Shown here: positions 17,363 to 31,246 of the stretch, one piece after another
How the letters are laid out: each line of letters starts with the position of its first letter
Position numbering within the stretch: position 1 is the stretch's first letter
Assembly (NCBI RefSeq): GCF_005405405.1
Contig: NZ_BJDZ01000004.1
Span: forward strand, 1 to 64,000
DNA: 64,000 nt
Reading direction: 5' to 3'
Source: Lactiplantibacillus plajomi
GTDB lineage: Bacteria; Bacillota; Bacilli; Lactobacillales; Lactobacillaceae
Position numbers and translations under genes: made by a program
The notes under the pieces: model-generated
What the model was told of the DNA's origin: nothing
The model's database searches: none
Seen by the model: the letters and a program-made list of their open reading frames with translations, nothing else

Positions 17363-17427
17363 GGTTACTAAAAAGTTTTACTTGTTTTACTAGAATTTAA
17401 GGTATAATTATTTATGAAAGCGGTTTA
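17363..17427 (+). promoter_or_regulatory. galM promoter region with GalR-like and cre-like sites
   Basis: Two operator-like words lie here: GGTTACTAAAAAGTT at 17363 and GTTTTACTAGAATTTAA at 17384. A TATAAT -10 box is at 17403-17408; the -35 is poor (TTGTTT at 17382, 15-base spacer). TGAAAGCGGTTTAT at 17414-17427, just after the start site, matches cre at 12 of 14 positions. Confidence 0.55.
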
Positions 17428-17446
17428 TTACTTGGAGGTGCGAGTT

Positions 17447-18478
17447 ATGAAAGTGAAAGAGGAAGTTTTTGGCAAGGTTGATGGGGAGCGGGTCAGCCGC
17501 TATACTTTAACGAATAACCATCAGACCCGGGTCGCCGTGATTAGTTTAGGGGCCACGTTACAGGAGTTTGTTGTCAACGAAAACGGGACGGCGCGACCGT
17601 TAACGATTGGCCTGAAAACGCTGGCGGATTATCAAAATAATGGTTTTAATATTAGCCAGACGATCGGTCGGGTTGCGGGGCGCATCGGTGGTGCCCAGTT
17701 TGAACTGGACGGGCAAACTTATAAGGTGGATATGAACGAAGAGACGCATTCGTTGCACGGCGGTTACCACGGTTTCACTAAGATTAACTTTGCCGGTCAG
17801 CTTGAAAAGACCGATGACACGGCTAGCGTTGTGTTAACCCACCACGTGAAGGCCACTGATGATCATTACCCGGGAAATATTGCATTGATCGTCAAGTTCA
17901 CCCTCGATGATCAAGACCAATTGAGTATTGATTTTAGTGCTCAGACAGATGCGCCAACGTTGTTTAACCCGACCAATCACGTTTATTGGAACGTTTCGGA
18001 TGGCCAGGAAGGGTTGGATCAACAGTGGTTACAAATTCATAGTGATCAACAATTGGAATTTGACGCGGAGAAGGTACCGACCGGACGACGGTTACCGGTT
18101 GAAAAAACCGCCTACGACTTTAACCAGCCCCGGAACTTACAGCGAGCGTTGGATGAGCTGGCTGTCGAAAACGGTAAGGTTGAATTTGACGACGCTTACG
18201 AAGTGACCCCGAGCCTGAACGAACCGGTGGCTTCGCTGGGCGATGTCGGCGGTAAACGTCGGGTTGATGTTTATTCTGACCGGAACGGGTTAGTGATTTT
18301 TACGGCTGATCCGGTTAACGGGGCCAAGCAGGACGCCCACCAGTATAATTCGGTGGCGACTGAAGCCCAGACGTTGCCGGACGCCATTAACCATCCGGGC
18401 TTTGGTGACATTACGTTACGCCCGAATTACCCGGCAACCTACCACATTATGTTTGCTTATCAGTATCTAGGCGAGTAA
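17447..18478 (+). CDS. galM: Aldose 1-epimerase (mutarotase)
   Basis: GalM interconverts alpha- and beta-galactose so that the product of beta-galactosidase can feed GalK. The 343-residue protein shows the family pattern: SLGATLQEFVV near the start, TIGRVAGRIGGAQF, HSLHGGYHGF with the catalytic-region His, FNPTNHVYWNV with the second His, and ATEAQTLPDAIN containing the C-terminal Glu. The ATG at 17447 is chosen because CTTGGAGGTG precedes it; an earlier ATG at 17414 lacks a ribosome binding site and lies inside the cre-like word. It has its own promoter and lies upstream of galK in the same orientation. Confidence 0.93.
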   Translation: MKVKEEVFGKVDGERVSRYTLTNNHQTRVAVISLGATLQEFVVNENGTARPLTIGLKTLADYQNNGFNISQTIGRVAGRIGGAQFELDGQTYKVDMNEETHSLHGGYHGFTKINFAGQLEKTDDTASVVLTHHVKATDDHYPGNIALIVKFTLDDQDQLSIDFSAQTDAPTLFNPTNHVYWNVSDGQEGLDQQWLQIHSDQQLEFDAEKVPTGRRLPVEKTAYDFNQPRNLQRALDELAVENGKVEFDDAYEVTPSLNEPVASLGDVGGKRRVDVYSDRNGLVIFTADPVNGAKQDAHQYNSVATEAQTLPDAINHPGFGDITLRPNYPATYHIMFAYQYLGE

Positions 18479-18514
18479 AAAGTAAGGGCCGCATCCGAAG
18501 ATGCGGCCCTTACT
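18476..18514. terminator. Hairpin between galM and galK
   Basis: A perfect 15-bp stem (AGTAAGGGCCGCATC and its complement) with a short loop follows the galM stop. A run of A precedes it but no T-run follows, so termination on the plus strand may be partial. galK has its own promoter after it. Confidence 0.65.
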
Positions 18515-18590
18515 GTACCTAATAGTTACTGTTAGTGTACCACAATATAAATATATTTGTAATAAAAGCTAAAGAAGCACCCGATTTTAG

Positions 18591-18644
18591 TTGACAAACG
18601 GACTGGAAAGGCTTACATTATGTTTAGTAAAATTTTAGTAAATC
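18591..18644 (+). promoter_or_regulatory. galKETR promoter with tandem operator
   Basis: TTGACA at 18591-18596 and TACATT at 18614-18619 are 17 bases apart. Directly downstream are two direct copies of TTTAGTAAA at 18623 and 18634, 11 bases apart, in GTTTAGTAAAATTTTAGTAAATC. This position, near the start site, suits repression by the LacI-type GalR encoded in the operon. TGGAAAGGCTTACA at 18604-18617 resembles cre at 12 of 14 positions. Confidence 0.7.
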
Positions 18645-18663
18645 GATGATGGAGGTTCCGACA

Positions 18664-19839
18664 ATGGAAATCGCTAACTTACAAAAAGAATTCAAAGAAA
18701 CCTTTAACCGTGATTCAGAACGGGTCTTTTTCTCACCCGGACGAATTAACTTAATTGGGGAACATACCGACTATAATGGTGGCCACGTTTTTCCTTGTGC
18801 AATCAGCATTGGGACGTACGGCGTTTACGCAGCCCGGACGGATCAGACGGTGCGGATGTTTTCCGCCAACATTCCGGATCAGGGGATCGTGAGCTTTGAC
18901 GTGAATGACTTGGCGTACCAGAAGGCGGCCGGGTGGACGAACTATCCGAAGGGCATGATGTACGAGTTAGCTAAGGCCGGTGCGAGTTTTGACCACGGCT
19001 TTGACCTATTCGTTCACGGCAACTTACCCGACGGTGCTGGCTTATCTTCCTCGGCCTCAATCGAACTTTTGATGGGAACGATTTTGCGCAGCACTTTCAA
19101 CTTAACGGTCGGGCAATTGGAATTAGTCAAGCTCGGCCAAAAGGTTGAAAACGACTATATCGGGGTTAACTCGGGAATTATGGACCAGTTTGCGGTCGGG
19201 ATGGGTAAAAAAGACCAAGCGATTTTACTGGATACCAATACGATGGCTTACGATTACGCGCCGGTCAACTTGGGCGATAACGTGATTGTGATTATGAACA
19301 CCAATAAACGGCGGGAACTGCAGGACTCCAAGTATAATGAGCGGCGTTCGGAATGTGAAGCGGCCCTGACCCGGTTACAGACCGCGCTACCAATCAAATC
19401 ATTGGGTGACTTAAATGAGGATCAATTTGACCGGGCCGCCTACCTGATTAACGATGACACCCTAATTCGCCGGGCCCGCCACGCCGTCTTTGAAAACCGG
19501 CGGACGATTCGGGCGACCGAAGCCTTGGCAGACAACGACCTGGACACCTTTGGCCAGTTAATGACCGCGTCGCACGTCTCATTGCATTTCGATTACGCCG
19601 TGACCGGGCAAGAATTGGATACCTTGGCTGAAACGGCCTGGGCACAACCCGGGGTGCTGGGTGCCCGGATGACCGGCGCTGGTTTCGGGGGCTGTGCGAT
19701 TGCAATCGTGGCCAAGGACCAAGTGGCTAACTTTAAGAAGAACGTTGGCCGGGTTTACGCGGAAACGGTCGGTTACGAAGCTGACTTTTACATTGCGGAA
19801 ATCGCGGACGGACCGCGCGAATTGACGGTGGAAGCTTAA
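18664..19839 (+). CDS. galK: Galactokinase
   Basis: GalK phosphorylates alpha-galactose to galactose 1-phosphate with ATP, the first committed Leloir step. The 391-residue GHMP kinase carries the galactokinase signature [15 protein letters not shown] near residue 30, the ATP loop [14 protein letters not shown], and the C-terminal [15 protein letters not shown]. The start at 18664 is nine bases after GGAGG; the upstream ATG at 18646 overlaps that box. It is the first gene of galK-galE-galT-galR, which is read from the TTGACA promoter just upstream. Confidence 0.97.
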
Positions 19840-19862
19840 GTCGAATTAACGGAGGTAATAAA

Positions 19863-20864
19863 ATGGCAGTGTTAGTTTTAGGGGGCGCCGGCTACATCGG
19901 CTCCCACATGGTTGATCGGTTAATTACGAAGGGTTATGACGTGGCGGTCGTTGATAATTTAGTGACCGGCCACCAAGCCGCGATTAATGCCAAGGCCCGC
20001 TTTTACGAAGGCGACGTCCGCGACCGCGACTTCATGAACTCGGTTTTTGATCAGGAAGACGTAGAGGGGGTCATCCACTTTGCCGCCTTTTCAATCGTTC
20101 CCGAATCGATGAAAAATCCGCTCAAGTATTTTGACAATAATACGGCGGGGATGGTCGCGTTACTAGAAGTGATGGCAAAACACGACGTTAAGCGAATTGT
20201 CTTCTCGTCAACCGCCGCAACGTACGGCGAACCAGAACGGGTGCCGATCGAGGAGGGCGACCCGCAAGTACCAACCAACCCGTACGGTGAAAGTAAGTTG
20301 GCGATGGAAAAAATCATGCACTGGTCAGACCTGGCTTACGGGATTAAATTCGTCGCCTTACGGTACTTTAACGTTGCCGGCGCGAAGGCGGACGGGAGTA
20401 TCGGTGAAGACCACCACCCGGAAACCCACCTCGTACCGATTATTTTACAAGTGGCGGCTGGTGAACGTGACCAACTCCAAATTTTTGGCGACGATTACCC
20501 GACGCCGGACGGCACCAACGTGCGCGATTACGTGCATGTCGTTGATTTAGCCGACGCCCACATCTTGGCGCTGGAATACTTAAAGCAGGGGCATGATAGT
20601 GACGCCTTCAACCTCGGCTCGTCAACCGGCTTTTCAAATAAGCAAATGTTGGAAGCGGCCCGCGAAGTGACCGGTCAACCAATTCCGACCGTTATGGCAC
20701 CGCGCCGGGCAGGGGATCCAAGTACGCTGATTGCGGCTAGCACGAAGGCGCGGAAAGTGTTGAACTGGCAACCGCAGTACGACGACGTTAAAGAAATTAT
20801 TCGGACCGCTTGGAATTGGAAACAACGTCATCCTAAGGGGTACGCCGATCGGGAGGATAAGTAA
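19863..20864 (+). CDS. galE: UDP-glucose 4-epimerase
   Basis: GalE interconverts UDP-galactose and UDP-glucose using bound NAD. The 333-residue short-chain dehydrogenase fold begins with the NAD motif [12 protein letters not shown]. Catalytic Ser-Ser-Thr in [11 protein letters not shown] and the YxxxK motif in [12 protein letters not shown] are visible, as is RYFNVAGA. It starts 23 bases after galK with a GGAGG box. It also supplies UDP-galactose for cell-wall and exopolysaccharide synthesis. Confidence 0.97.
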
Positions 20865-20865
20865 C

Positions 20866-23353
<2,488 letters not shown>

Positions 23354-23800: not shown

Positions 23801-25018
23801 TTAGGCTAGCGTAATCTGTTCGTAGGCCGGACTTTGAATGACCTTGGAAAAGGCTACGAGTGCGCAGGCACCCAGCGCCCCACGAGTTTGTTCATACGGT
23901 AAGATTTGAACCTCAGTGTTTTTCTTAGTCGGAATGAATTGGAGCTGGTTAGCAATCGTGGCGCTGATTCGCTGATTGAACTCGTGACGTTGAAGGATCC
24001 GGCTATTGATGTAAATAGCGTCTGCGTCACACATCATTAGTAGGTTGGCGACCGAAATGCCCAAATATTCGATGCCCTGATCCAAAATATCGGTCATGTA
24101 CTGGTCACCTAGTTCGTAGGCGGCGAGCACCGTTTTTAAGTCGATCTCATCGGCGCTGTTTACCAGCGAATGGATCAGCGAGGCTTCGGACAGCTCGAAT
24201 AACTGCTTGGCCCGTTTGATCAGCCAAGTTTCCGAAATAAAGGTTTGTAAGCAACCGCGTTTACCACATTCACACTGGGTCCCGCGGGGGTTGACGACCG
24301 TGTGCCCGATTTCGCCGATGTAGTAATTTTGCTTCGGGTGGAGGCTGTTCGGTTCGATAAATGAACAGAATAGCCCGAACCCGACCTGCAGAAAGAGGAA
24401 CTTTTCGGGCGTTGTTTCCGCGTTGAATAGGTAGCGTGCGAGTGCCATCGCTTCGACGTTGTTATCGGCCAGTACCGGGAAATCAACTTGTTGACGGACG
24501 ATTTCCAAGTCGAAGTCGTTCCACATCGGGTTGTTCGAAATAATCGTGTGCTTGTCGATGTCGTAGTGCCCCGGAATTGACAGCCCCAGTCCGAGTAAGT
24601 TGAGGTCGGGATTGTTAGCCTGCATGGTCTGAACGAGCCCGACGATCGTTTCGTTAATTGGGTGAGCCGCCACTTGGTCGTACGGAATGCTCTGGTGGTC
24701 GATCAAGGTGCCCGTAATGGTTGTAATGACAGCGGTCATCCCGGCCAGTGTAAAGTCGATGCCCATTAAAGCCCCGTAATCGGGATTGAGTGAAATGACC
24801 TTTTGCTTTCGGCCGGAGCCCTTAGTCTTCGTGACTTCCGCGCCGGTTTCAATGACGAGGTCGTCGGCAATCAGCGCCGTAACGGTTTGCGAAACGGTCG
24901 CGGGGGTCATCGCGGTCCCCTGGTAAATTTCCGTTCGCGTTGCCCGCGGATGGCGGTATAAAAATTGGATGGTGCGGGTGTAGTTACTGCGATTAATTTG
25001 TTCGTTTTTCATCTTCAT
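23801..25018 (-). CDS. ROK-family transcriptional regulator (NagC/XylR type)
   Basis: The N-terminal 80 residues form a winged helix (RTEIYQGTAMTPATVSQTVTALIADDLV). The rest is a ROK sugar-kinase-like domain with the zinc motif GTQCECGKRGC near residue 250. Proteins of this kind sense a sugar and release a repressed operon. It is divergent from the EIIC-DUF4838 operon and probably controls it. The start is uncertain among GTG 25021, ATG 25018 and ATG 25009; none has a strong ribosome binding site. Confidence 0.88.
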   Translation of the reverse strand: MKMKNEQINRSNYTRTIQFLYRHPRATRTEIYQGTAMTPATVSQTVTALIADDLVIETGAEVTKTKGSGRKQKVISLNPDYGALMGIDFTLAGMTAVITTITGTLIDHQSIPYDQVAAHPINETIVGLVQTMQANNPDLNLLGLGLSIPGHYDIDKHTIISNNPMWNDFDLEIVRQQVDFPVLADNNVEAMALARYLFNAETTPEKFLFLQVGFGLFCSFIEPNSLHPKQNYYIGEIGHTVVNPRGTQCECGKRGCLQTFISETWLIKRAKQLFELSEASLIHSLVNSADEIDLKTVLAAYELGDQYMTDILDQGIEYLGISVANLLMMCDADAIYINSRILQRHEFNQRISATIANQLQFIPTKKNTEVQILPYEQTRGALGACALVAFSKVIQSPAYEQITLA

Positions 25019-25021
25019 CAC

Positions 25022-25222
25022 CAGTTTTAATTATAATTTAAAAATAAAAGGGAAACAAGCGCTAGTTTTAACCAAGAGAAGTATAGAATCCGGCTAATAA
25101 GCGAATGTGAGCGTCATCAAATGAGCGATTTTATTTATTATATATAAAAAAAGGCTTGATTATCCGGTGAAACATGTTATTATTATTTTTGAAATATAAA
25201 TAAAGAAGAGGAGATGTTACGG
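25022..25222. promoter_or_regulatory. Divergent promoter region, ROK and EIIC genes
   Basis: The region is AT-rich. AACAAGCGCTAGTT at about 25053 resembles cre in its core. TTGATT at 25156 and a TATTAT -10-like element near 25180 could drive the EIIC operon. No clear inverted repeat for the ROK protein was recognised. Confidence 0.4.
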
Positions 25223-26530
25223 ATGCACGGATTCATGAACTTCCTACAAAATAAGTTAGCCCCAGTCGGCGAACGTATTAGCAAACAGCGCCACTTAAAA
25301 GCACTGCGTGAAGGTTTCATGCTAGCAATGCCCCTAATTCTCGTTGGGTCGATTTTTCAATTATTAGTCAGTTTTCCCATTACCAGCTATACCAATTGGT
25401 TAGCAAAGACGGGAATTGGTGACGTTTTAAACCGGATGGTCAATAACAGTTTTGGTCTGATTGCGTTACTCACCACTTTCGGGATTGCCTACCGGTTGGC
25501 ACAATCTTACGATACCGAAGGGTTACCAGCCGGGGCCCTCTCGTTAGCCAGCTTTCTTTTAGCCACACCGTCAATTGCGGATAAAACCGGGGTTGCCGGG
25601 ATTCCTTACAGCGGAATCGGTGGTCAAGGGCTCTTTTCAGCCATTGTGATCGCGTTCATTACGGCGGAAATTTATCGTTGGTTTATCCAAAAGAACATTA
25701 CCATCAAGATGCCGGATAGTGTGCCGGCCGTCGTGGGGCAATCGTTCATGGCGTTAGTTCCCGGTGCGGTCATTTTAATTTTCTTCGCGTTAGTTAACGC
25801 GGGATTGAAAGCGCTTAATATCACGAGCTTAAACGCCCTGTTAGCAATTATTGTGGGTAAGCCACTGAGCTTGATCGGTGGGAGCTTAATCGGGGCCTTC
25901 GTTGCGATCCTACTTAACTCACTGTTCTGGTTCTGCGGGGTCAACGGTGGCCAAGTGGTCAACACGGTGATGCAACCAATCTGGTTACAATTTACCGATG
26001 AAAACCGGGTGGCCTTACAAGCCGGTGCGGAACACTTACCAAACATCATCACGCAACCATTCATTGACTTATTCGTCTATGCCGGTGGTGGCGGTGCTAC
26101 GATTGGTTTAGCACTCTGCTTGATGTTCTTTAGTCGCAGTAAGGAATACAAAACGTTAGGGAAGATTTCCGGGATTCCAGCGCTGTTTAACATTAATACC
26201 GCCATCCTGTTCACGTTCCCGACGGTCTTGAACCCAATCATGATGATTCCATTCTTGTTGGCACCGATTGCAAACGCTGCCATTACGTACTTTGCCATGG
26301 TACTCGGGTGGGTACCGTTGACGACCGGGGTAACCTTGCCGTGGACCACGCCGCCAATTATCGGTGGGTTCTTAGCAACGGGTGGTAGCTGGGCAGCAGC
26401 CTTGTTACAAGCGCTCTGCGTTGTCCTGTCGTTCTTTATTTACTACCCATTCTTCAAGGTTGCGGACCGTGCCCACGTTAAGCAGGAAAAAGAAGACGTG
26501 ACAACCAAAGCAACTACCGAACAAGCATAG
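25223..26530 (+). CDS. PTS EIIC component, lactose/cellobiose family
   Basis: The 435-residue membrane protein matches CelB-type EIIC subunits: an amphipathic start followed by LREGFMLAMPLILVGSIFQLL, about ten membrane segments, the central GAFVAILLNSLFWFCGVNGGQVVN and the GHP-like loop region before TM9 (TTGVTLPWTTPPIIGGFLATGG). It moves a beta-diglycoside-type sugar while EIIB and EIIA phosphorylate it; neither is encoded here, so they must come from elsewhere. ATG at 25223 has GAGGAG nine bases upstream. It is co-transcribed with the DUF4838 gene. Confidence 0.9.
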   Translation: MHGFMNFLQNKLAPVGERISKQRHLKALREGFMLAMPLILVGSIFQLLVSFPITSYTNWLAKTGIGDVLNRMVNNSFGLIALLTTFGIAYRLAQSYDTEGLPAGALSLASFLLATPSIADKTGVAGIPYSGIGGQGLFSAIVIAFITAEIYRWFIQKNITIKMPDSVPAVVGQSFMALVPGAVILIFFALVNAGLKALNITSLNALLAIIVGKPLSLIGGSLIGAFVAILLNSLFWFCGVNGGQVVNTVMQPIWLQFTDENRVALQAGAEHLPNIITQPFIDLFVYAGGGGATIGLALCLMFFSRSKEYKTLGKISGIPALFNINTAILFTFPTVLNPIMMIPFLLAPIANAAITYFAMVLGWVPLTTGVTLPWTTPPIIGGFLATGGSWAAALLQALCVVLSFFIYYPFFKVADRAHVKQEKEDVTTKATTEQA

Positions 26531-26542
26531 GAGGAGATTAGC

Positions 26543-28444
26543 GTGTTAATTTCAATTGCAACTAATCGGGCGGATCAAACCTTACAGTTTGCCGCCGAAG
26601 AATTACAAGCTCATTTAACCAAAATGACGCCGGCGAAAATCACGCTGGTCGGCGACACGCCGAACGCCACCATTCGGGTCAACTGGGTTGCAGATGACGA
26701 AACGCTGGACCATGTGGTGATCGACCAACGGGACGGCCGTTGCGCCATTACGGGGAACCGCCCGGTCGCAGCCTTAATCGGGGTGTACGAATATTTACAC
26801 CATCTGGGGGCCCGTTTCCTGCGCCCAGACAAGGCGCACGACCTATTACCAGCCGTCAGCGCGGAATTTCTCTTGGATGATTACCACTACGACCACGTGG
26901 CGAGTTATAAGCACCGCGGCGTCTGCATCGAAGGGGCGGATTCCGTTGAAAACATTGTTGATTTCATCGATTGGTTACCTAAAAACGGGTACAACAGTTT
27001 CTTCGTTCAGTTCGAGAATTCGTACACGTTCTTGAAGCGGTGGTACGACCACGAATCAAATAACTATTTGGAACGGGAAGCACTCTCAACGGCCACCATT
27101 ACGGCGATGAACAATGCCATTGACCAAGCTATTCAGGTTCGCGGGCTGCACCATCACCGGGTCGGCCACGGTTGGACCGGTGAAGTGCTCGGGTACTCAT
27201 CCAAGTTTGGGTGGGAATCCGGCGTGACCCTGCCGAAGGAAAAGGAGCCGTTGGTGGCACTAGTCAACGGTAAACGGGCCTTGATCAACGATACGCCGAT
27301 CTTTACGAGTCTGGACTTTGCTAATCCGGAAGTTAATGAAAAGATGGCACGGGTGATCGTGGATTACGCGGCAACCCACCAAAACGTTGATTACTTGCAC
27401 GTTTGGCTATCGGACGCAAATAATAACATTTGTGAGTGTGACATTTGCCAAAAGACGACGCCGTCAGACCAATACGTTGAATTCTTAAACTTATTGGATG
27501 AAAAGTTGACCGCTGCCGACCTTGATACCAAAATTTGTTTCTTACTTTACCATGAATTACTATTTGCACCGCAACACGCGAAGATCAAGCATCCGGATCG
27601 TTTCACCATGATGTTTGCCCCAATCAGCCGGACGTTTGAAAAGAGTTACGCGGACGTTGACTACGAACACGGGATTCCCGCCGCGACACCGTACGTTCGA
27701 AATGACATTACCTTGCCGAATTCACTGGAAGCCAACCTGGCCTTCTTATTCGACTGGCAAAAGCAGTTTAACGGCGACAGTTTCGTTTACGACTACCCGC
27801 TTGGCCGGGCCCATTACGGTGATTTAGGTTACATGCGGATCAGCGAGATTATTTCCCGCGACATTAAGTTCTTGGATCAGCTCCACCTAAATGGTTATAT
27901 TAGCTGTCAGGAATTACGTTCCGGCTTACCGACGACCTTACCAAACTACGTGATGGGGCGGACGTTGTGGGACAAGTCAGCCGATTACAACGACCTGTGT
28001 GACGAGTACTTCACGGCGGCCTTCGGTGACCAGGGTGGCCAAGTTCGCGCGTACCTTCAAGCGATTTCGGATCATTCTAGCAGTGACTACTTCAATGCGA
28101 TCGGCCCGCGGCATAATCCTGAAATGGGCCAACGGTTCGAAAAAATCGTTTCGTTGACGACCGACTTTTTAGCCACGGTTAACCAGGCGTTACCCGAAAC
28201 GACCGGCGTGCAACGGCAAAATTGGCGGGTGCTGGATTATCACCGCCAAGCTTACGGCCAGTTAGCCCTGGCGCTGGCGGACATTGCCAACGACCAGACC
28301 AGCTTAGCCGAAGCTGAATGGCGCGGGTTCGTTGACTTCATTAAGTTACACGAATCCCAGTTCCAACCATACCTTGACGTTTACCGAATCATTGAAGTTG
28401 CGACTAATTATGCGGGTTTTCAATATAAAGACCCGGTTAAGTAA
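26543..28444 (+). CDS. DUF4838 domain protein, putative glycoside hydrolase
   Basis: The 633-residue protein has an N-terminal domain like that of beta-hexosaminidases (residues 1-110, GVYEYLHHLGARFLRP near 78-93) and a large DUF4838-type TIM-barrel region. A Cys cluster NNICECDICQK sits near residue 300. Acidic residues typical of glycosidases are present, but the catalytic pair cannot be assigned from sequence. It has no signal peptide. Its place 12 bases after an EIIC gene suggests that it hydrolyses the phosphorylated sugar brought in by that transporter. Function is not established; this is inference from operon context. GTG start with GGAGGAG upstream. Confidence 0.8.
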   Translation: MLISIATNRADQTLQFAAEELQAHLTKMTPAKITLVGDTPNATIRVNWVADDETLDHVVIDQRDGRCAITGNRPVAALIGVYEYLHHLGARFLRPDKAHDLLPAVSAEFLLDDYHYDHVASYKHRGVCIEGADSVENIVDFIDWLPKNGYNSFFVQFENSYTFLKRWYDHESNNYLEREALSTATITAMNNAIDQAIQVRGLHHHRVGHGWTGEVLGYSSKFGWESGVTLPKEKEPLVALVNGKRALINDTPIFTSLDFANPEVNEKMARVIVDYAATHQNVDYLHVWLSDANNNICECDICQKTTPSDQYVEFLNLLDEKLTAADLDTKICFLLYHELLFAPQHAKIKHPDRFTMMFAPISRTFEKSYADVDYEHGIPAATPYVRNDITLPNSLEANLAFLFDWQKQFNGDSFVYDYPLGRAHYGDLGYMRISEIISRDIKFLDQLHLNGYISCQELRSGLPTTLPNYVMGRTLWDKSADYNDLCDEYFTAAFGDQGGQVRAYLQAISDHSSSDYFNAIGPRHNPEMGQRFEKIVSLTTDFLATVNQALPETTGVQRQNWRVLDYHRQAYGQLALALADIANDQTSLAEAEWRGFVDFIKLHESQFQPYLDVYRIIEVATNYAGFQYKDPVK

Positions 28445-31179: not shown

Positions 31180-31246
31180 GCGACAATTACGATAGCGACA
31201 ATTACGATAGCGACAATTACGATAGCGACAATTACGATAGCGACAA
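31180..31246. repeat. 15-bp tandem repeat, about 4.5 copies
   Basis: GCGACAATTACGATA occurs four times exactly (31180, 31195, 31210, 31225) and a fifth partial copy follows. It lies in a non-coding gap just before a terminator. Its length is a multiple of three, so the minus strand encodes a shadow Arg-Tyr-Arg-Asn-Cys repeat, probably not translated. Confidence 0.95.

Follow-up and report, generated by a model that had tools for sequence, protein, structure and literature searches.

The DNA analysed here, a window of 64,000 nucleotides from Lactiplantibacillus plajomi (contig NZ_BJDZ01000004.1, our contig C4, of RefSeq assembly GCF_005405405.1), carries at positions 23801-28444 a compact unit of three genes: one for a regulator of the ROK family and, divergent from it, those for a lone enzyme IIC (EIIC) of the lactose/cellobiose (Lac) family of the phosphotransferase system (PTS) and for a protein with a DUF4838 domain (Table 1). 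The open reading frames lie where an earlier note on this DNA had put them, and its view of a transporter-enzyme pair under a ROK regulator is supported. The frame of the DUF4838 protein is no chance frame, since other genera, and another family, have these three genes in the same order. This order is conserved, the DUF4838 protein is a close relative of the SP_0475-type protein of Streptococcus pneumoniae, and two residues of the EIIC are replaced in nearly all relatives linked to such an enzyme. Our analysis concerns the substrate that such a pair might import and cleave.

Table 1. Position of the cassette, of its candidate functional residues and of the neighbouring features in the window
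Feature	Position	Strand	Remarks
ROK-family transcriptional regulator (NagC/Mlc type)	23801-25021	-	PF00480, 127.4 bits; divergent from the cassette
Divergent promoter region	25022-25213	.	A+T-rich, 27.6% G+C
Lac/cellobiose-family PTS EIIC permease	25214-26530	+	PF02378 PTS_EIIC, 217.9 bits; TIGR00410, 432.8 bits (cut-off 236)
EIIC N244 codon	25943-25945	+	place of H250 in Bacillus cereus ChbC (3qnq alignment)
EIIC T329 codon	26198-26200	+	place of E334 in B. cereus ChbC (3qnq alignment)
DUF4838 protein, 633 aa, predicted GH185-type glycoside hydrolase	26543-28444	+	GTG start; PF16126 DUF4838
Enzyme D291 codon	27413-27415	+	end of barrel strand 4; Asp in 84 of 84 rows
Enzyme R422 codon	27806-27808	+	loop after barrel strand 7
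gal context: galM-like, galK, galE, galT, LacI-type regulator	17414-23353	+	upstream of the cassette; NCBIfam

The DUF4838 enzyme and its relatives

The DUF4838 protein matches PF16126 with 49.3 bits (cut-off 26.6) over residues 240-505 and gives a weak NAGLU_N match (17.5 bits, cut-off 28.3). Neither a signal peptide nor a membrane helix was predicted (highest 19-residue Kyte-Doolittle mean 0.97), in keeping with the cytoplasmic location that had been proposed for it. Its AlphaFold model, computed with 9 sequences (predicted local distance difference test score, pLDDT, 81.7; predicted template modelling score, pTM, 0.88), consists of an N-terminal GH20b-like domain, a TIM barrel and a C-terminal helical domain, with barrel loops that are in part poorly modelled (residues 210-227, pLDDT below 50). 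The fold of the model is matched in the Protein Data Bank (PDB) by structures of the glycoside hydrolase (GH) families GH115, GH138, GH20, GH84 and GH67 (Z 15-19); a sequence search for a solved close relative returned none, the best profile match being a GH67 N-terminal domain at E 0.066. The earlier description, a glycosidase of TIM-barrel type whose N-terminal domain resembles that of hexosaminidases and which belongs to a little-known enzyme family, is thus borne out by Pfam, by the model and by the fold matches, and the comparison with GH20 and GH84 that it had proposed finds both folds among the matches.

The DUF4838 Pfam domain spans two families of the CAZy database, GH163 and GH185. 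Hence, a score above the curated cut-off, although expected of a GH163 protein, is common to GH185 as well, and the GH20-like arrangement of N-terminal domain and TIM barrel expected of a GH185 protein is present in the model. The homologue L029, from a record named S. pneumoniae and used, by its operon order, as a stand-in for SP_0475, the founding member of GH185, shares 337 of 627 aligned residues with the window protein (53.7% identity), including all 16 of 16 hand-picked conserved positions. Counts out of 80 loci rest on the best 80 of 444 matches of a profile scan for DUF4838 relatives. A tree of 85 rows, from a quick search with no bootstrap, groups the window protein, next to that of Lactobacillus colini, with the S. 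pneumoniae type in a clade of 23 rows (SH-aLRT 99); it omits L040, whose frame is broken, and L008, L009 and L016, which stem from the same genomes as L022, L021 and L036, and includes L083 cut to 640 aa. We are highly confident, from these sequence comparisons, that the window protein is a GH185-type enzyme. In the founding GH185 study (Bains et al. 2023), the enzyme reportedly favoured the 6-sulfo form of N-acetylglucosamine (GlcNAc) very strongly over the plain sugar, and it is said to use a substrate-assisted mechanism with residues unlike those of GH20. SP_0475 is described as a GH185 6-sulfo-beta-N-acetylglucosaminidase (PMC11659886; this and the other PMC sources are cited from excerpts), and the window enzyme probably has the same activity.

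The kinship extends to the operon. The S. pneumoniae loci L029 and L031 encode, in this order, ROK, EIIC, DUF4838, EIIA, 6-phospho-beta-galactosidase and EIIBC. This matches the published order SP0473-SP0478, in which an oppositely oriented ROK gene is followed by genes for a lactose-type EIIC, a hypothetical protein, EIIA, 6-phospho-beta-galactosidase and EIIBC (PMC3302838). SP_0473-SP_0474-SP_0475 and the window cassette share the three genes, their order and their orientation, with 54% identity between the enzymes; the cassette in the window, unlike that of the pneumococcus, ends with the enzyme gene and sits behind a gal operon.

GH163 was our first idea for the enzyme, in connection with N-glycans, and was dropped once the relationship to SP_0475 emerged. 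A GH163-like protein would cut a neutral GlcNAc-beta bond in the manner of an endo-beta-N-acetylglucosaminidase, the group at C6 being irrelevant. DUF4838 proteins, with which the window protein shares its Pfam domain, are indeed also annotated as GH163 (table in PMC9870897), and a GH163 enzyme of Bacteroides thetaiotaomicron cuts the GlcNAc-beta-1,2-mannose bond of N-glycans (PMC10154615). This enzyme is, however, described as a surface-located endo-enzyme acting on large glycans (PMC10154615), a description that sets it apart from a cytoplasmic enzyme behind a disaccharide-type permease, and the window protein is 54% identical to the SP_0475 type over 627 positions and lies in its clade; we consider a GH163-like activity improbable.

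For the residue comparison, 84 rows were used, 79 of them GH185-type and 5 distant DUF4838 proteins, with L094 (long branch) and L040 omitted. At the end of barrel strand 4, where GH20 enzymes carry an adjacent catalytic Asp-Glu pair, a by-eye alignment places Ser290-Asp291 of the window enzyme; position 290 is Ser, Ala or Leu across the 84 rows, and the invariant D291 is, by its position in the model, a candidate acid/base. Because Ser290-Asp291 stands in place of Asp-Glu, the catalytic residues differ from those of GH20, and the Pfam scan of the enzyme reported no GH20 match. The model nevertheless resembles the GH20 enzyme Bt4394 in fold (7dva, with 6S-GlcNAc; Z 15.2, 398 residues, root-mean-square deviation 4.5), and, as in the Bt4394 motif (PMC11659886), a candidate sulfate-binding Arg stands four residues after a conserved Tyr (judged by eye). 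R422, an Arg in 79/79 GH185-type rows and in 0/5 distant DUF4838 rows, is a candidate contact for a sulfate (or phosphate) at C6. In two loci without an EIIC (L017:7085-9704 and L018:7053-9679), a regulator of the GntR/UTRA type precedes a divergent DUF4838 protein that lacks R363 and R422; this protein may belong to a different family.

The EIIC permease and its PTS partners

The EIIC exceeds the cut-off of its family model and aligns from end to end with B. cereus ChbC (3qnq; 342 bits, residues 8-429). In Escherichia coli IICGlc, E298, the equivalent of E334, coordinates the 6-OH of glucose, and E334 and H250 are the only sugar contacts of ChbC that are conserved with IICGlc (PMC11393339). 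Canonical EIICs bind the 6-OH, their site of phosphorylation, through this conserved Glu and His. Unlike ChbC, the window EIIC has Asn and Thr in place of H250 and E334, and its operon encodes neither EIIA nor EIIB.

This replacement goes together with a GH185 gene. Among 24 EIICs encoded next upstream of such a gene, including that of L040 with its frame-broken GH185 gene, Asn is found in 24 and the Asn/Thr pair in 23, as it is in the S. pneumoniae-type EIIC; the set comprises 22 Asn/Thr rows, the Asn/Thr protein of Bifidobacterium dolichotidis (L041) and the exception, an Asn/Glu protein from Romboutsia (L035). The labels linked and other were set by hand from gene order. The 38 other Lac-family EIICs (27 taken as best matches among Lactobacillaceae, 2 of the host genome and 9 of the loci, of which five streptococcal copies are near-identical) retain Glu in 37 cases, 36 being His/Glu and one Asn/Glu; the remaining Phe/Gly protein is a poorly matching EIIC of the host itself, under the family cut-off. 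In a second sample (395 Lactobacillales genomes, 24 EIIC loci), 4/4 Asn/Thr EIICs lay beside a GH185 gene, one of them (L168) in the S. gallolyticus genome already counted, and all 20 of 20 His/Glu EIICs had no GH185 gene within 1.5 kb; over both samples, 57/58 other Lac-family EIICs keep Glu. Schleiferilactobacillus perolens provides an internal control: it has a His/Glu EIIC beside a GH123 gene and, within a few kb of it, an Asn/Thr EIIC in its GH185 cassette. At this locus (L009:796-6148), a GH3-like gene (by eye), the second lone Lac-family EIIC and the GH123 gene adjoin the GH185 cassette, another pairing of a lone EIIC with a hexosaminidase-type enzyme.

That no EIIA or EIIB accompanies the EIIC, as the earlier note had remarked, holds for the whole of contig C4, on which genome-wide family matches place no Lac-type EIIA or EIIB. 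A lone EIIC is not remarkable in itself, since the genome has a single Lac-type EIIA match, elsewhere (C30), against three Lac-family EIIC matches, one of them under the family cut-off; six EIIB matches lie on C20, C23, C25 and C30. On C30 (L127:5374-9168), the EIIA gene adjoins an EIIB gene and two GH1-like genes behind a GntR-like regulator (GH1-like and GntR-like by eye), with no EIIC, and this EIIB-EIIA pair is apparently a shared EIIBA supply.

The loss of the residues at the phosphorylation site might also mean that the EIIC no longer transports but acts as a sugar sensor for the ROK regulator, in which case the substrate would enter otherwise, for instance through the ATP-binding cassette (ABC) transporter of some loci; an ABC permease gene is indeed found in 9/22 EIIC loci. 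Such a sensor role is very unlikely in our estimation: no ABC transporter gene of this kind lies at the window locus or at four other Lactobacillaceae loci (L019-L022), and the EIIC aligns with the whole of ChbC and has kept 55-78% identity between genera and between families.

A sulfated or a phosphorylated substrate

We lean towards viewing the cassette as an accessory set of genes by which a beta-glycoside of 6-O-sulfo-N-acetylglucosamine (6-sulfo-GlcNAc) is taken up and cleaved, a reading built on sequence comparison that we hold with moderate confidence. The most likely substrate would combine 6-sulfo-GlcNAc with galactose, a linkage of the kind present in keratan sulfate or in sulfated glycans of mucin. 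A sulfated rather than a phosphorylated substrate is, we think, distinctly probable, and only slightly less so that the EIIC does not phosphorylate its sugar, since C6 would already be sulfated and both residues that hold the 6-OH are gone. Galactose as the sugar gained is suggested by the position of the cassette behind galK-galE-galT; as the partner sugar it remains a tentative choice, somewhat short of an even chance. The EIIC would accordingly be expected to carry the sulfated disaccharide across the membrane without phosphorylation; the cytoplasmic GH185 enzyme, to judge from SP_0475, would cut the beta bond and release 6-sulfo-GlcNAc and the other sugar; galactose would pass to the adjacent Leloir operon; and the ROK protein would serve as repressor. 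Import and hydrolysis of a specific phosphorylated glycoside, as had been suggested from the sequence earlier, is probably wrong: a C6-sulfated, unphosphorylated substrate fits better because the residues of the 6-OH site are replaced and because SP_0475 is reported to be a 6-sulfo-beta-N-acetylglucosaminidase (PMC11659886).

More broadly, and with about equal chances of being right or wrong, the EIIC lineage may have left the PTS and become stand-alone, non-phosphorylating carriers for C6-sulfated sugars, with a cytoplasmic GH185 sulfoglycosidase coupled to them and the C6 sulfate replacing the PTS phosphate. The cassette would then have reached a Bifidobacterium as well as Lactobacillaceae, Streptococcaceae and Clostridia.

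The strongest competitor is a classical PTS, in which the EIIC, served by EIIB and EIIA from elsewhere, would phosphorylate C6 of GlcNAc, the enzyme would be a 6-phospho-beta-N-acetylglucosaminidase, and the 6-sulfo activity would reflect phosphate mimicry. Such an enzyme was our second idea, and it was lowered in rank after the survey of EIIC residues. The EIIB-EIIA pair on C30, with its GH1-like genes and no EIIC beside it, makes this route physically possible. Its product, GlcNAc 6-phosphate, would need only the housekeeping enzymes NagA and NagB, which would explain the minimal cassette, and Lacticaseibacillus paracasei takes diacetylchitobiose along such a route with a GH170 enzyme, according to genetic evidence (PMC12791066). 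In the enzyme itself, His337 is fixed in the clade with the EIIC (22/22), whereas the clade in a sulfonate context has Gln (41/41), and the EIIC of Romboutsia L035 retains Glu. These points have to be set against the replacement of the 6-OH-site Glu in 23/24 and of the His in 24/24 linked EIICs, against the 6-sulfo activity reported for the characterised relative SP_0475 (PMC11659886), and against R422, which is common to clades in sulfonate or sulfatase contexts. On balance, we regard the classical route as unlikely, with perhaps a minor share of the probability.

Several findings weigh against a non-phosphorylating carrier of sulfated sugars. The linked EIICs form one lineage, with five near-identical streptococcal copies, so that 23/24 describes a nearly fixed trait and not 23 independent events, and the EIICs used for comparison, which combine the closest matches of the window EIIC from two samples with the EIICs of the loci, were not drawn at random. 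In Romboutsia weinsteinii (L035:5221-6537), the EIIC keeps Glu with a GH185 gene 464 bp behind it and an EIIA nearby; distance is no excuse, because the S. gallolyticus pair, which is Asn/Thr, lies 440 bp apart, and this EIIC is either a replacement or a phosphorylating variant. A Lac-type EIIA is encoded in 8/22 EIIC loci (marker search), fitting a phosphorylating system, although 7 of these 8 also encode a gene of the GH1 6-phospho-beta-galactosidase type. The same marker search found genes for SsuA, NagA, NagB, TauE, LarA and sulfatases in 0/22 EIIC loci, so that the sulfur context derives from the sister clades. The host genome shows no clear soluble sugar sulfatase, its three PF00884 matches lying in frames of 714, 736 and 968 aa. 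Lastly, a growth phenotype on mannose of SP0476-8, in a double mutant (PMC3302838), is not predicted by our reading.

In the sister clades, genes for a sulfonate-type ABC component (SsuA) occur in 39 of 80 loci, followed by NagB-like (32), NagA (28), phosphofructokinase-like (18), LarA-like (18), TauE (17) and sulfatase (7) genes. A gene cluster with a GH185-type gene recurs there, complete in L047, L054 and L065 and with most members in L044, L056, L064, L079, L096 and other loci of Oscillospiraceae and Lachnospiraceae: it comprises an SsuABC-type transporter, NagA, a divergent NagB, a pyrophosphate-type phosphofructokinase, a divergent triosephosphate isomerase, a divergent class II aldolase, a LarA homologue and a TauE exporter. 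From its gene content, this cluster looks like a sulfoglycolysis-type pathway for 6-sulfo-GlcNAc in which the sulfur group would never be removed; a literature search on sulfoglycolysis, N-acetylglucosamine and TauE found no paper on such a cluster, and none was recognised by its title among the entries shown by further searches.

Both the enzyme family and the gene order of the pneumococcus have been published before. Bidossi et al. proposed that a further Lac-type PTS of the pneumococcus (SPH1925-6-7-9), which has an additional EIIC gene, imports sulfated mucin sugars (PMC3302838); unlike that system, for which they proposed that sulfite is removed and that the operon encodes a TauE exporter (PMC3302838), the window cassette has no TauE match that we could see within 7 kb. 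Added here are the EIIC residue signature, its close link with GH185 and the suggestion of transport without phosphorylation, part of which the founding GH185 study may discuss; no literature search was aimed at a non-phosphorylating EIIC as such. Mucin and keratan sulfate glycans are commonly capped by sulfated GlcNAc, and the excerpts of papers on known 6-sulfo-beta-N-acetylglucosaminidases name enzymes and no transporter. The cassette offers a candidate for this transporter together with a signature of two residues, Thr replacing Glu and Asn replacing His, which sets it apart from ordinary EIICs in 23/24 linked cases and in 4/4 of the second sample. If the proposed role is correct, bacterial uptake of intact sulfated disaccharides, and a PTS permease that works uncoupled from phosphorylation in nature, become directly testable, and SP_0474, annotated in the pneumococcus as a component of a cellobiose/lactose PTS, would have to be re-annotated as a carrier of sulfated sugars.

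Distribution and genomic setting of the cassette

The cassette is rare. With the host genome (2.76 Mb) included in each count, the DUF4838 protein occurs in 1/21 genomes of the genus, in 3/301 genomes of Lactobacillaceae, all three with the ROK-EIIC-DUF4838 cassette, and in 4/398 genomes of a phylum sample; a search with the Pfam DUF4838 model hit 4/246 genomes of an order sample, 3 of them above the cut-off. In a collection of genome contigs, a scan with the single protein found no relative, whereas the profile scan found the 444 matches mentioned above; a search of plasmids found none. The same gene order is present in Lacticaseibacillus hegangensis (L008/L022) and S. perolens (L009/L021), Lactobacillaceae like the host, and in S. 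gallolyticus BI02 (L016/L036). EIIC matches of at least 75% identity in the 301 Lactobacillaceae genomes were confined to the three enzyme-bearing ones, the next best reaching 49%.

The interval behind the gal operon could be followed from the LacI-type gene, 60-81% identical in the relatives, to a UbiB gene. This stretch is spanned in 5/7 relatives of the genus that were fetched, the LacI-gene end being rearranged or not covered in the other two. In the five, other genes or a transporter gene only take the place of the cassette; from their translations, these encode a PTS module, a BrnQ-like transporter or a GH42-like galactosidase. Because the slot holds something else in all five relatives in which it could be read, we take the cassette to be accessory and its site to be variable. 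It lies behind the gal operon, of which galK, galE and galT exceed their NCBIfam cut-offs and galM and the LacI-type regulator fall under theirs. The G+C content of the cassette genes (49-52%) is similar to that of their surroundings, and horizontal transfer, judged by base composition, is not visible.

In S. gallolyticus BI02, the gene after the cassette encodes a surface protein with a partial match to the lacto-N-biosidase LnbX (130.9 bits, far under the cut-off) and to a sortase-anchor family. Related surface-type beta-helix proteins are encoded in 3/22 EIIC loci, those of S. gallolyticus (L016:1210-4905), L. colini (L020:12506-15394) and S. azizii (L023), and could possibly be extracellular suppliers of the disaccharide.

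The ROK protein retains the GEIGH and CxCGxxGC motifs (translation read by eye); its nearest NCBIfam equivalogs, Mlc (100 bits) and NagC (95 bits), both score far under the cut-off. A scan for promoters and terminators found sites no more numerous than in shuffled sequences. Between the ROK gene and the EIIC gene lies the palindrome AAACAAGCGCTAGTTT (25053-25068), a possible operator or catabolite-response site. The EIIC start is likelier ATG 25223 than ATG 25214, because the latter lies within the GGAG ribosome site and the L008 relative begins at the equivalent Met. The gene for the DUF4838 protein starts with GTG 12 nt past the EIIC stop, behind a ribosome site AGGAGG. Further downstream, an intergenic, perfect 15-bp tandem repeat of 4.5 copies occupies positions 31180-31246 of the window.

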